Source of the DNA: Oscillospiraceae bacterium
Lineage (GTDB): Bacteria > Bacillota > Clostridia > Oscillospirales > Oscillospiraceae
DNA length: 64,000 nt
Reading direction: 5' to 3'
Assembly (NCBI GenBank): GCA_022846075.1
Contig: AP025582.1
Span: forward strand, 2,790,001-2,854,000
The first letter of the stretch is position 1. Each line of letters begins with the position of its first letter. Below are positions 24,687 through 29,570 of the stretch, piece by piece. The position numbers were made by a program, and so were the translations under genes. The notes under the pieces were generated by a model. The model was given only the letters and a program-made list of their open reading frames with translations. It ran no database searches and was not told the DNA's origin.

Positions 24687-25091
24687 ATGTATAAGAGCAA
24701 GAAGCCTTATCTGTACGGCACCGGCCGTCGGAAGTCCTCCGTGGCCCGGGTGCACCTGTTCCCCAACGGCACCGGCGCCATCACCATCAACGGCCGTGAC
24801 ATCGACGAGTATTTCGGCCTGGACACCCTGAAGCTCATTGTCCGCCAGCCCCTGGTCACCACCGACCTGGTGGGCAAGGTGGACATCGAGACCACCGTCA
24901 CCGGCGGCGGCGTCACCGGCCAGGCCGGCGCCATCCGTCACGGCATCGCCCGCGCCCTGCTGGAGGTCAACCCCGAGTACCGCGCCGCCCTCAAGGCCGC
25001 CGGCTTCCTCACCCGTGACCCTCGTATGAAGGAGCGCAAGAAATACGGCCTCAAGGCCGCCCGTCGGGCTCCCCAGTTCAGCAAGCGCTGA
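24687..25091 (+). CDS. rpsI: 30S ribosomal protein S9
   Basis: Small-subunit protein whose C-terminal tail reaches the P-site tRNA. The 134-residue product has [13 protein letters not shown] near the N-terminus and ends in the canonical RRAPQFSKR tail, with Arg as the last residue contacting tRNA. AGGAGG lies 12 bases upstream of the ATG. Cotranscribed with rplM, 19 bases after it. Confidence 0.98.
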
Positions 25092-25107
25092 TTTTCCCCA
25101 TCCATAC

Positions 25108-25140
25108 GAAGTACCGCCTTTCGGGGCGGTACTTCTTTTT
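25108..25140 (+). terminator. Terminator of rplM-rpsI
   Basis: GAAGTACCGCC pairs with GGCGGTACTTC around a 6-base loop, followed by six T residues. Confidence 0.9.
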
Positions 25141-25287
25141 TGCGCCGCCCCTGCGGGAGCCTTTTGTCCAATGCCCATGGCCCCCTCCTATCTGCCGGGT
25201 GTCAAGCGCAAACGCCGTCAAAAATCAGAAAAAGCCCCTCCGCCCCGGGCACTTTTTCTCCAAATTGCCCAAATGTCCAATTTTTCA

Positions 25288-25316
25288 TTGACAGCCGAAC
25301 CCCGGGGTGCTAGTAT
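25288..25316 (+). promoter_or_regulatory. Promoter of the met leader and metNIQ
   Basis: A perfect TTGACA at 25288-25293 and TAGTAT (4 of 6) at 25311-25316 are 17 bases apart. Transcription would start near 25323, about 45 bases before the leader ATG and about 235 bases before metN. Confidence 0.65.
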
Positions 25317-25368
25317 AAATCCCAACAAGAAAACCCGGGTCACGGGGTAGGAATCGAGGCGGGCTGGC

Positions 25369-25467
25369 ATGGCGTACTGTTATGGAATGATGATGCGGAT
25401 GATGGACATGGCTATGATGCCGATGCCCACGATGCCTTGCGCCTCCGCACCCGGAAGCATTCGATAA
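25369..25467 (+). CDS. Methionine-rich leader peptide of metNIQ
   Basis: A 32-codon ORF starting at ATG 25369 and ending at TAA 25465-25467. Eleven codons are ATG: positions 1, 7, 8, 9, 11, 12, 14, 16, 17, 19 and 22, so 10 of the 16 codons from 7 to 22 are Met. The first six residues are MAYCYG; the tail after codon 22 has no Met. GAGG at 25356-25359 is nine bases upstream. It lies between a promoter and a perfect intrinsic terminator just before the methionine transporter genes. This is the layout of amino-acid attenuator leader peptides (trp, his, leu), here apparently reading Met-tRNA supply. The peptide itself probably has no other role. Confidence 0.85.
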   Translation: MAYCYGMMMRMMDMAMMPMPTMPCASAPGSIR

Positions 25468-25499
25468 CGGTCGGCCGTCTCAGGCTGTATTGGGAATCG

Positions 25500-25545
25500 A
25501 AGAGTGGGAAGCGGCGACGCTTCCCACTCTTTTTGTTTTGTTTTG
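25500..25545 (+). terminator. Attenuator terminator before metN
   Basis: AAGAGTGGGAAGCG (25500-25513) pairs perfectly with CGCTTCCCACTCTT (25518-25531) around a GCGA tetraloop, followed by a T-rich tract (TTTGTTTTGTTTT). It ends 13 bases before the metN start, so it must be overcome for metNIQ to be transcribed from the upstream promoter. Confidence 0.9.
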
Positions 25546-25557
25546 AGGAAATGAGGG

Positions 25558-26586
25558 ATGACCATGATCAAGCTGGTTCACGTCAGCAAGACCTTTGGCG
25601 ACGGCGAAACCGGGGTCCACGCCGTGCGGGACGTTTCTCTGGAGATCGCCCCGGGAGAGATCTTCGGCATCATCGGCTACTCCGGCGCGGGCAAGTCCAC
25701 CCTGGTGCGGTGCATCAACCTGCTGGAGCGGCCCACCGGCGGCACCGTGACGGTGGACGGCCAGGAGCTGACACGAATGCCGGAGCGGGACCTGCGGGCG
25801 GTACGGAAGAAGATCGGCATGATCTTCCAGCATTTCAACCTGATGCCCTCCCGTACCGTGGCCCAGAACGTGGCCTTCCCCCTCAAGGGGGTGGACAAGG
25901 CGGAGACCGACCGCAAGGTAAAGGAGCTTTTGGAGCTGGTGGGCCTGCCCGACAAGGCGGACGCCTATCCCTCCCAGCTCTCCGGCGGCCAGAAGCAGCG
26001 GGTGGCCATTGCCCGGGCATTGGCCAGCGGCCCCAAGGTCCTCCTGTGCGACGAGGCCACCTCCGCTCTGGACCCGCAGACCACCCGCTCCATTCTCCGC
26101 CTGATCCAGGACATCAACCAAAAGACGGGCATCACCGTGGTCATCATCACCCACGAGATGGCGGTGGTCAAGGACATCTGCCGGCGGGTGGCCGTCATGG
26201 ACGGCGGCCGCGTGGTGGAGGAGGGGGACGTGTTCTCCATCTTCTCCTCCCCCAGAGAGGCCGTGACTCGCTCCTTTATCTCCACCACCTCCAATCTGAG
26301 CAAGGTGGAGGAGCTGATGGAGGCCGGCTCCCCCATCGTGGACCTCTCCCCCGGCCAGCTTTTGGTGCGGATGACCTACATCCAGAAAAGCGCGTCTGAG
26401 GCCATCATCTCCGACCTCTCCCGCCGGTTCGGGGTGGACATCAACATCATTTACAGCAACCTGGAGGTCATCGAGGACGCCCCCCTGGGCGGGCTGGTGG
26501 CCGTCCTGGGCGGCGACCGGGCCCAGGAGGCACTGGAATATTGGACGTCAAAAAATGTACGGGCGGAGGTGCTGAAACGTGGCTGA
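25558..26586 (+). CDS. metN: Methionine ABC transporter, ATP-binding protein
   Basis: ATPase of the MetNIQ importer, at the inner face of the membrane. The 342-residue product has Walker A GYSGAGKST (40-48), Q-loop FQHFN, signature LSGGQ (141-145), Walker B VLLCDEATSALDP (161-173), and a C-terminal NIL domain (about 265-340), which in E. coli MetN binds methionine and blocks transport. GAGGAA precedes the ATG at 25558; an ATG two codons later is also possible. It overlaps metI by eight bases. Expression probably depends on the Met-rich leader and terminator upstream. Confidence 0.95.
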   Translation: MTMIKLVHVSKTFGDGETGVHAVRDVSLEIAPGEIFGIIGYSGAGKSTLVRCINLLERPTGGTVTVDGQELTRMPERDLRAVRKKIGMIFQHFNLMPSRTVAQNVAFPLKGVDKAETDRKVKELLELVGLPDKADAYPSQLSGGQKQRVAIARALASGPKVLLCDEATSALDPQTTRSILRLIQDINQKTGITVVIITHEMAVVKDICRRVAVMDGGRVVEEGDVFSIFSSPREAVTRSFISTTSNLSKVEELMEAGSPIVDLSPGQLLVRMTYIQKSASEAIISDLSRRFGVDINIIYSNLEVIEDAPLGGLVAVLGGDRAQEALEYWTSKNVRAEVLKRG

Positions 26587-27259
26587 GCTTTTATATTCCA
26601 TCATCCCCAACGTAGTGGACCGGTCCGACCAGCTCTGGCAGGCCTTTGTCCAGACCATCCAGATGGTGGGCATCTCCGGCGCCATCTCTCTTCTCTTCGG
26701 CATCCCTCTCGGCGTTCTTCTCTTCACCACCAGGACCGGCGGCATCCTGCAAAACCGCCCTCTCCACTTTCTTTTGAGCAAATTCTGTGACGTGTTCCGC
26801 TCCATCCCCTTCATTCTCCTGGCCATCCTGCTGCTGGGCCTTTCCCGGCTCATCATGCACACCGCCATCGGGGTCCGGGGGGCCATCATTCCCCTCCTCT
26901 TCGGCACCGTCCCCTACCTGGCCCGCCAGGTGGAGGGGGCCCTGGCCGAGGTGCCGGACGGCCTCATCGAGGCGGCCCAGTCCATGGGCTGCTCCCCTTG
27001 GGAGATCGTCACCCGGGTCTATTTGAAGGAGGGCATCCCCGGCATCGCCCGAGGCGTCACCATCACCCTCATCTCCCTCATCAACTTCACCGCCATCGCG
27101 GGCACCATCGGGGCCGGCGGCCTGGGCAATTTCGCCCTCATGTACGGCCACAGCAAGAACCTGCCCGACATCACCGTGGTGGTCATCCTCATCATCATCG
27201 TGCTGGTGAGCCTGGTCCAGGCCGCCGGCAACTACGTCGTCAACCGCTCCACCCACTGA
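26579..27259 (+). CDS. metI: Methionine ABC transporter, permease
   Basis: Membrane subunit of MetNIQ with five predicted helices, 226 residues. The EAA loop that docks on MetN is seen as LIEAAQSMGCSPWEIV at about 129-144. It starts at GTG 26579, eight bases before the metN stop, with GGAGG at 26565-26569. Right after its stop codon sits a small hairpin repeat (27260-27310), before metQ. Confidence 0.95.
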   Translation: MAELLYSIIPNVVDRSDQLWQAFVQTIQMVGISGAISLLFGIPLGVLLFTTRTGGILQNRPLHFLLSKFCDVFRSIPFILLAILLLGLSRLIMHTAIGVRGAIIPLLFGTVPYLARQVEGALAEVPDGLIEAAQSMGCSPWEIVTRVYLKEGIPGIARGVTITLISLINFTAIAGTIGAGGLGNFALMYGHSKNLPDITVVVILIIIVLVSLVQAAGNYVVNRSTH

Positions 27260-27404: not shown

Positions 27405-28286
27405 ATGAACACCAAGAAGATTTTGTCCCTGGGGCTCTCCGCCGCCCTCACCCTCTCCCTGGCCGCCTGCGGCGGCGGGAACACCACCGAGAGCAAGACC
27501 CCCGAGTCCGCCGCCCCCAGCGCCGCCGCGGAATCCGCCGCCCCCGCCGCTGACCTCACCATCGTCAAGGTGGGCGTGGTGGGCGCCAACAACGAGCAGT
27601 GGGACACCGTCAACGAGCTGCTGGCCAAGGACAACATCAAGTGCGAGATGGTGGAGTTCTCCGAGTACAAGCTCCCCAACGAGGCCCTGAACGCCGGGGA
27701 GATCGACCTGAACGCCTTCCAGCACAAGGCCTATCTCAACAAGGAGATCGCCGACCTGGGCTATGACCTCTCCGTCCTGGGCGACACCATCATCGCCCCC
27801 CTTTCCCTCTACTCCGACAAGATCACCTCCGTGGAGGAGATCAAGGAAAACGACAAGATCGCCGTCCCCAGCGACCCCACCAACGAGGGCCGCTGCTTCA
27901 AGATCCTGGAGACCGCCGGGCTCATCGAGGTGGATCCTGAGGCGGGCTACACCCCTGAGCTCAAGGACATCACTGCCAACCCCCTGAACCTGGAATTCGT
28001 GGAGGTGGAGGCCGCCAACACCGCCAGCCTCCTGCCCGACGTCACCGCCGCCTTCATCAACGGCGCCCACGCCGTGGACAACGGTCTGAACGTGAAGGAC
28101 GCCATCTACACCGAGCAGGTCCAGCCCGGCAGCGACAACCCCTACATCAACATCATCGCCGTCCGCACCGCCGATCTGGAGAACGAGACCTACCAGAAGG
28201 TCCTGGCCGCCTACCAGTCCGCCGAGACCGCCGCCGCCATCGAGGAGATCTTCCAGGGCACCTACCTGCCCGCGTTCGAGTATTGA
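27405..28286 (+). CDS. metQ: Methionine-binding lipoprotein
   Basis: Substrate-binding protein of MetNIQ (NlpA family), anchored outside the cell by lipid on Cys22 after the lipobox LAAC. In 293 residues a low-complexity Ser/Ala/Pro linker (about 24-47) leads to the two-lobed binding domain with VGANNEQWDTVNELL, NAFQHKAYLN and the C-terminal TYLPAFEY. AGGAGG at 27391-27396 precedes the ATG. It ends the metNIQ unit, with a terminator behind it. Confidence 0.95.
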   Translation: MNTKKILSLGLSAALTLSLAACGGGNTTESKTPESAAPSAAAESAAPAADLTIVKVGVVGANNEQWDTVNELLAKDNIKCEMVEFSEYKLPNEALNAGEIDLNAFQHKAYLNKEIADLGYDLSVLGDTIIAPLSLYSDKITSVEEIKENDKIAVPSDPTNEGRCFKILETAGLIEVDPEAGYTPELKDITANPLNLEFVEVEAANTASLLPDVTAAFINGAHAVDNGLNVKDAIYTEQVQPGSDNPYINIIAVRTADLENETYQKVLAAYQSAETAAAIEEIFQGTYLPAFEY

Positions 28287-28324: not shown

Positions 28325-28382
28325 TACTGACTGTATAAGCGGATAGCATCTGCTCCCACCATTGATAAAGGAGGTCATTCTT

Positions 28383-29570
28383 ATGGGATTTTGGGAAGAG
28401 GCCCAGGCCCTATCCCCTTACCTCTCCGCCCTGCGGGAGGAGTTCCACCGCCACCCGGAGGTAAGCCGCCAGGAGTTCTGGACGGCGGAGCGCATCGAAG
28501 CCGAACTGGACGCCATCGGTATCACCAACCACCGCCGGGTGGATGAAACCGGCGTCTACGCCGTCTTCCGCGGGGAGCAGCCCGGAGACCGGGTCATCAC
28601 CCTGCGGGCGGACATCGACGCCCTGGCCATCCAGGACGAGAAGCGGGAGGTCCCCTACTGCTCCCAAGTGCCGGGCCGGATGCACGCCTGCGGCCATGAC
28701 GCCCACACCGCCGGGCTGCTGGGGGGCGCCAAGCTCCTCTTCGCCCACAAGGCTGAGTTCGGCGGCGAGGTCCGCCTCTTCTTCCAGCAGGCCGAGGAGA
28801 TCGGCTATGGCGGCCGGGTCTTCGTCAAGGAGGGCCTGCTCGCCGGCTCCGGCCGGGTCTTCGGGGTGCATATGGCCTCCGACCTGGCGGTGGGCACCGT
28901 GGGGGTGAAGCCGGGGCCCAACAACGCCTCGGTGGACCACTTCACCATCACCGTCACTGGCAAGGCCGCCCACGTCTCCACCCCCCACCTGGGAGTGGAT
29001 GCCCTCTACATCGCCAGCCAGATCGTGGTAGCCCTCCAAGCCCTGGTGACCCGCCGCACCTCCCCGGTGGAGCCCCTTCTCATCGGGGTGGGGATGCTCC
29101 ACTCGGGCACCGCCTACAACATCGTGGCGGAGGAGGCGGTGCTGGAGGGCACCATCCGGGCCTGCTCGGTGGAGACCCGGGCCCAGGCCAAGGCGGAGCT
29201 GGACGCCCTGTGCAAAGAGACCGCCAAGCTCTACGGCGGCACGGCGGAGGTTGTCTGGGAGGACTTCGCCTCCCCCCTCATCAACGACCCCGGCGCCTGC
29301 CGGGAGGCGGGGGCGGTGGTCTCCGACCTCTTGGGCCCCCAGGCCCTGGTCACCGACCGCCCCCTCTCCCTGGGGGGGGACGACTTCGCCGAGTTCCTTC
29401 TCACCGTCCCCGGGTGTTATGCCTACGTGGGCAGCGCCAGCCCGGACAAGCCGGATACCCAGCGGGCCCACCACAACAACCGCTTCGATATCGACGAGGG
29501 GGCGCTGGTTATCACGGCGGCGCTCCACGCAGAATACGCCGCCCGGTACCTCTCCGGGAAAATCGGATAA
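28383..29570 (+). CDS. M20 family amidohydrolase
   Basis: A 395-residue cytosolic metal-dependent hydrolase of the peptidase M20D group (hippurate hydrolase, N-acetyl-amino-acid deacetylase type). Metal-site motifs: HACGHDAHTAG (about 100-110), QQAEE (about 137-141), GVHMASD, and a late LGGDDFAEFL. AAAGGAGG at 28366-28373 precedes the ATG. Coming directly after metQ, it could free methionine or another amino acid from an N-acylated form taken up nearby, but the substrate is not shown by sequence. Confidence 0.85.
   Translation: MGFWEEAQALSPYLSALREEFHRHPEVSRQEFWTAERIEAELDAIGITNHRRVDETGVYAVFRGEQPGDRVITLRADIDALAIQDEKREVPYCSQVPGRMHACGHDAHTAGLLGGAKLLFAHKAEFGGEVRLFFQQAEEIGYGGRVFVKEGLLAGSGRVFGVHMASDLAVGTVGVKPGPNNASVDHFTITVTGKAAHVSTPHLGVDALYIASQIVVALQALVTRRTSPVEPLLIGVGMLHSGTAYNIVAEEAVLEGTIRACSVETRAQAKAELDALCKETAKLYGGTAEVVWEDFASPLINDPGACREAGAVVSDLLGPQALVTDRPLSLGGDDFAEFLLTVPGCYAYVGSASPDKPDTQRAHHNNRFDIDEGALVITAALHAEYAARYLSGKIG

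Follow-up and report, generated by a model that had tools for sequence, protein, structure and literature searches.

Attenuators of the classic type are textbook cases for Trp, His, Leu, Thr, Phe and Ile/Val. Those of E. coli (trpL, hisL, leuL and thrL) resemble the metN leader described here in having a leader ORF rich in codons for the relevant amino acid, mutually exclusive pairings (predicted ones in the case of metN) and an intrinsic terminator before the operon; they differ from it in that the codon here is Met, the operon encodes a transporter and, in most of the genus to which the analyzed genome belongs, segment 1 of the alternative pairings is the leader's own ribosome site. Ribosome-mediated attenuation in a Firmicute has been tested by mutation at the rli60/ilv leader of Listeria monocytogenes, which, in the accessible part of that report, differs from the metN leader in carrying codons for branched-chain amino acids and preceding biosynthesis genes (PMC5864092). 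In bacilli, again Firmicutes, hisS paralogues are preceded by His leader peptides where this gene family otherwise has a T-box; as far as the available text of the study goes, they differ from the metN leader in concerning histidine and a synthetase gene (PMC2965389).

The control of methionine genes is usually ascribed to riboswitches, T-boxes and regulatory proteins, according to the available portions of two studies (PMC3766115, PMC7270179), and Seliverstov et al. (2005), in the accessible text, found no RNA element to be conserved upstream of the methionine operons of Actinobacteria (PMC1262725). T-boxes, putatively for Met, and SAM-I riboswitches are the RNA devices found before relatives of metN, and neither scores in the metN leader. 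The initial annotation of our locus knew of no characterized Met leader-peptide attenuator for metNIQ. Our literature search, which covered few subscription papers, returned a single, weak precedent: a leader peptide, "metL", was proposed earlier before metNIQ of Streptomyces lividans (PMC8079986). In the part of that report available to us, metL is unlike the metN leader, with few Met codons, several Cys and Thr codons and a leaderless start, and its authors state that a typical Rho-independent terminator is absent; this proposal qualifies the annotation's statement.

We analyzed a stretch of 64,000 nt from an Oscillospiraceae bacterium, hereafter the window, and propose that its metNIQ operon is very probably under the control of a methionine-specific, ribosome-mediated transcription attenuator. 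The novelty lies in the Met specificity, attenuation itself being already known.

Anatomy of the metN leader

The leader and the operon comprise the following features, all on the + strand.

25288–25316, +: sigma-70-type promoter, TTGACA-17-TAGTAT, read from the sequence; TTGACA is aligned in 15/15 genus leaders
25356–25363, +: segment 1, the leader ribosome site GAGGCGGG, a partial complement of segment 2
25369–25467, +: leader peptide ORF of 32 codons with 11 Met
25387–25434, +: Met codon cluster, codons 7–22 with 10 ATG, the putative stall zone
25438–25448, +: segment 2, common to the 1:2 and 2:3 pairings
25445–25514, +: predicted antiterminator fold (2:3), not stabler than shuffles (z -0.13)
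25499–25532, +: intrinsic terminator (3:4), 15 bp, -27.3 kcal/mol, with a T-rich tail
25558–26586, +: metN; best family ABC_MetN at 390 bits, under the curated cut-off of 499.7; an alternative start at 25564 is possible
26579–27259, +: metI; best family MetI, under its curated cut-off
27405–28286, +: metQ; best family MetQ, under its curated cut-off

In the promoter, TTGACA (25288–25293) is separated by a spacer of 17 nt from TAGTAT (25311–25316), which is preceded by TG. The leader ORF runs from the ATG at 25369 to the TAA at 25465–25467 and encodes the peptide MAYCYGMMMRMMDMAMMPMPTMPCASAPGSIR, in which codons 7, 8, 9, 11, 12, 14, 16, 17, 19 and 22 (10/16) specify Met. When both strands of the 64-kb window were searched for short ORFs (8–70 codons) with at least four non-initial Met in 12 codons, four were obtained; the metN leader ORF, with eight Met in 12 codons, is the sole one of them to have a terminator within 150 nt past its stop. 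That terminator consists of 15 pairs, including a terminal G-U, around a loop of 4 nt, and none of 200 shuffles was equally stable. The promoter, the 32-codon ORF with its recounted ATG codons and the clustering of ATG beyond chance are as the initial annotation had described them, and the terminator that it placed before metN is likewise present, counted here as 15 bp at 25499–25532.

The annotation's failure to recognize an S-box or a T-box in this leader was borne out by Rfam covariance models. The T-box model (RF00230) gave no match in 24801–25800 at E-values up to 10, nor window-wide at the gathering threshold; the SAM riboswitch model (RF00162) gave none in the metN leader or the window; and no Rfam family matched the leader in scans of the leader region and the window. 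S-box or T-box control of the metN leader was rejected, neither model scoring. Elsewhere in the same genome there are 13 T-box matches, five of them over the cut-off, and a single SAM riboswitch match, before metK; both devices are thus available to this bacterium and unused at the metN leader.

Genome-wide, the pattern ATGATGNNNATGNNNATGATG has two matches, one being the metN leader and the other, at 986449, lying opposite a 739-aa ORF. There are also 139 ATGATGATG sites in the genome; among the 30 that were examined, the loose Met-leader detector fired in six loci representing four distinct ORFs, whose terminators range from -9.8 to -14.2. Where an ATG run is already present, this detector is not immune to false positives. 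A second metN candidate, at G000:C1:83469, was rejected as a GlnQ-like paralogue.

Downstream of the leader the operon order is metN-metI-metQ. The start of metN may be the ATG at 25564 rather than that at 25558: locus L002 is without the first ATG, and GAGGG (25553–25557) sits 6 nt off 25564. For a start at 25558, GAGG at 25545–25548 would be suitable as well. An amidohydrolase-family gene lies 3' of metQ at 28362–29567 of the window, and a relative of it is also found 3' of metQ in L054 and L064.

Conservation in the genus and spread beyond it

metN was found in 15/16 genus genomes, the sixteenth being 67% complete, and a Met-rich leader with a terminator lies upstream of it in 15/15 of the genomes that hold it (L001 is the window's own locus). 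By eye, the genus leaders are hardly alignable 5' of the promoter and between the terminator and metN. Within the conserved core, the third positions of one Gly and one Ala codon vary and the ATGs are constant. The C-terminus can change freely, as in L011, where a one-base deletion shifts the leader stop; the L014 peptide begins differently and keeps the Met cluster. Codon 22 is Met in L001 and L002 only. The core also keeps Asp, Ala and Pro codons, which is more than a pure codon counter requires. In the comparison that the initial annotation had suggested, an ATG-rich ORF and a terminator persist upstream of metN in relatives, much of the remaining sequence being variable. Together, the anatomy and the conservation of the metN leader strongly suggest attenuation.

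In the wider family, metN (E <= 1e-95) was present in 32/200 genomes, 27 of them outside the genus. These 27 loci comprise 10 with a Met leader ORF and terminator (L024–L029 and L031–L034; L027 is weak), 10 with an Rfam T-box (L030, L035–L039, L042, L044, L047 and L048; 6/10 score under gathering) and seven with neither. In L026 and L029, three consecutive Met stand near the leader end. For several of the seven, the end of a metQ-like frame was seen by eye directly upstream, and a leader could lie farther upstream.

Searches of the order and the class found metN in 47/297 and 48/292 genomes, respectively, with Met leaders at L142–L145, L147–L150, L152, L153, L171, L207, L219 and L232; L164 has a leader with three Met in 12 codons, and L151 and L154 are repeats of family genomes. 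Among 80 named loci, those of Christensenella sp. UBA5394, an uncultured Peptostreptococcaceae, Lacrimispora celerecrescens and Chryseobacterium sp. BGARF1, the last a case from Bacteroidota, have a leader and terminator, and 75/80 gave no Met-leader match. When the phylum was searched using the MetN of Lacrimispora as query, 23/398 genomes were positive, and the 23 upstream regions gave one leader with terminator, L298. No Met leader was present in the upstream bases examined at L146, L172, L063 and L064, whose MetN is roughly 55–65% identical. In L118, which is one of the 80 named loci and comes from Slackia piriformis (Actinomycetota), a Met-rich ORF (...MTNMMMHMLKPG...) precedes metN, and an intrinsic terminator was not detected there.

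To count leaders, we used 195 upstream regions, that is, the 199 placed metN loci minus two duplicates (L151, L154) and two with little upstream sequence (L141, L190). In 41/195 of them, a short ORF having at least four Met in 12 codons lies ahead of a terminator; five dinucleotide shuffles gave 0, 0, 0, 0 and 1 of 195. Part of the set is enriched: we included 10 family loci for having leaders, and they contribute 8/41 hits, the 17 other non-genus loci of the family search were not added from it, and the genus accounts for 15 of the 41. The count is 33/185 without the 10 chosen loci and 18/170 when the genus is also left out. With the same criterion of four in 12, other residues gave lower counts (Met 41, Gly 26, Ala 22 and Arg 21 of 195), the shuffle comparison covering Met only. 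Adding L056 and L164 to the 41 yields the 43-leader set used below. L054, L056 and L164 are under the detector threshold and were called leaders by eye, L054 being the weakest.

Across families, the Met codons and the terminator are constant (an intrinsic terminator was found in 25/25 leaders of the first set), and other residues and stems change, with non-Met residues diverging as widely as in MTICGFVMMMAMFMCGMMMMPRF... and MKRFVTTMMMR. In a MetN tree built with FastTree from 128 rows, of which 41 have leaders (L055, L149 and L153 were omitted, their extracted protein being shorter than 200 residues), the leader label needs 12 changes, against 35.0 when shuffled, and at least nine are forced by starred branches. 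Certain relatives of metN instead have T-boxes or SAM riboswitches (the latter in L174 and L175). Of the 43 leaders, 24, the window's among them, were scanned with Rfam at an E-value threshold, nine (L002–L010) at gathering and 10 (L011–L015, L106, L108, L123, L164 and L232) in neither way. The non-leader loci without an individual Rfam scan are L157 (whose genome is that of L042), L177, L179–L199, L220–L235 and the named loci except L113.

This distribution raises the tentative and, in our judgment, rather unlikely picture of Met-codon attenuators as a widespread and repeatedly invented control of methionine import that is interchangeable with T-boxes and SAM riboswitches, reaches Bacteroidota and possibly acts as a band-pass switch. 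The Met attenuator as such, which is well supported and recurrent in Clostridia, would fill a gap in the list of amino-acid attenuators, the Met leader would be a marker for Met-tRNA sensing in these bacteria, and an operon that can have any of three RNA devices upstream would allow a natural comparison of them.

Alternative pairings and fold tests

Segment 2 reads GCGCGCCUCC in most of the genus and UGCGCCUCCGC at 25438–25448 in the window. The genus 1:2 helix, between segment 2 and the ribosome site, is paired in 94.0% of cells, with no double changes; the window row forms 7/9 pairs. The energy of the 1:2 duplex is at p <= 0.01 against shuffles in 12/15 genus leaders, the exceptions being L001 (the window), L002 and L015. 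The genus 2:3 helix, between segment 2 and the 5' arm of the terminator, is paired in 92.6% of cells, and sliding the partner by 1–3 columns lowers this to 25–57%. Covariation in the 2:3 helix is weak, two pairs having double changes, which 173/500 shuffles matched. Against shuffles, the 2:3 duplex energy has a median p of 0.07 in the genus and of 0.28 in the other 28 leaders, combined p values being set aside because the rows are related. Outside the genus, the terminator arm pairs with another segment, GUUUCCC in L032–L034 and a GAUGACC stretch in L147, L148 and L150.

In the window, the predicted 2:3 pairs are 25445–25448/25511–25514, 25450–25453/25505–25508 and 25460–25465/25496–25501. In the duplex-energy test the segment was cut short here, codon 22 being Met, and the 2:3 duplex has a p of 0.41. 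The alternative folds for terminator and antiterminator envisaged in the initial annotation exist as pairings, but the antiterminator stretch of the window (25435–25517) is only as stable as its shuffles. An antiterminator formed by the window's own sequence is modestly supported by this modeling.

We also folded each transcript as far as the loop of the terminator, placing the edge of the ribosome 12 nt beyond the A-site codon. In 33/43 leaders, the 5' arm of the terminator was sequestered more at the Met codons than at the stop (by >0.15); three showed the reverse (L053, L056 and L123, the first two being leaders of the L026/L029 type) and seven lay within 0.15. The observed means at stall and stop were 0.79 and 0.46 in the genus and 0.66 and 0.32 in the other leaders. 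Shuffled segments gave a mean stall-minus-stop difference of 0.17, and 11/43 leaders beat their own 40 shuffles at <=0.05, so that the support from folding is moderate. The window gave 0.65 at stall vs 0.15 at stop, with a shuffle fraction of 0.03; its arm sequestration at stall alone was matched by 16/100 shuffles. Among E. coli K-12 yardsticks, trpL (0.62/0.00), leuL (0.60/0.01) and thrL (0.73/0.00) share this signature, whereas hisL shows no stall/stop difference; since hisL is a true attenuator, the test can miss true attenuators.

Proposed switch and competing explanations

In the switch that we propose, RNA polymerase would start at the 25288–25316 promoter and a ribosome would enter the leader ORF. 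If charged elongator Met-tRNA, presumably the quantity sensed, were plentiful, the ribosome would reach the stop codon and cover segment 2, allowing the terminator at 25499–25532 to form (OFF). If charged Met-tRNA were short, the ribosome would stall at codons 7–19 and leave segment 2 free; a ribosome at codon 22, judging from its spacing, would mask part of this segment. Free segment 2 would then pair with the 5' arm of the terminator (2:3), and polymerase would proceed into metNIQ (ON). With no translation, segment 2 may instead pair with the leader ribosome site (1:2), a pairing that is clear in most of the genus and weaker in the window. A band-pass, part of the rather unlikely picture outlined above, is conceivable because the leader itself starts with Met and because, in most of the genus, the ribosome site can pair with segment 2; such a switch would be ON when elongator Met-tRNA is short and OFF again when initiation fails. 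From the parts, their conservation and the pairings possible in silico, we infer the translation of the leader, the stalling, the antitermination and the response to methionine. The reading as a trp-type attenuator rests on codon identity being kept while neighboring codons are replaced, on the terminator with its possible alternative pairings and on an operon for the matching amino acid.

The conservation of certain non-Met residues in the genus (YG, D, A, P and T) would also be expected of a TnaC-like nascent peptide that, being Met-rich, senses free methionine or SAM in the exit tunnel and stalls the ribosome. Arrest peptides require defined residues, whereas across families Met is the shared residue, its order, spacing and neighbors differ, and leaders can be as short as the 11-residue example given above; we consider such a sensor very improbable. 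A second rival is an unrecognized Met or SAM aptamer that would overlap the ORF and use the ATGs as part of an RNA fold. Nucleotide conservation in the genus core is strong, and the fold of the 238-nt leader surpasses those of its shuffles (z -3.71), the terminator contributing to this value; yet no Rfam family matches the leader, and by eye the leaders of separate families are unalike outside the Met codons and terminator. The cluster ATGs, moreover, share the frame of the ORF (304 do and 1 does not in the 43 leaders, given that an ORF had to be found for the count), and ribosome sites are commoner than in shuffles, a match of at least five letters preceding 26/43 leaders (shuffles, mean 3.1 and maximum 11/43) and a looser four-letter match, itself weak evidence, preceding 42/43 (shuffles, mean 22.0 and maximum 28). 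An aptamer therefore seems to us a slim prospect.

Met-rich peptides can bind copper, and the leader ORF might encode a small protein with another job, such as metal binding, that is uncoupled from a fixed terminator. Against this, distant lineages repeatedly show a Met-rich ORF immediately followed by a terminator and metN, the non-Met sequence changes from family to family and the C-terminus varies freely, as the indel-shifted stop of L011 illustrates; this explanation appears to us extremely improbable, and the methionine-specific attenuator is the reading that we retain.

Some further leader types were encountered. L207, L219 and L164, which belong to another MetN clade, have a second type of leader with mixed Met and Cys codons (e.g., MLALRMSMCMMCGFARFSAIQP) and strong terminators. 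Before metN in L128 (Chryseobacterium sp. FP211-J200), we saw by eye a leader-like ORF with Cys, MLKFCFVCCSNIFQ, and after it a hairpin and a T-run; this ORF is possibly a Cys version of the leader, the relative L113 having Met codons at that place. Inspection by eye also revealed CAUG-based local palindromes in the Met clusters of L149 (e.g., GCGGCAUGAUGAUGAUGCCGC) and other leaders, which could serve as pause hairpins.
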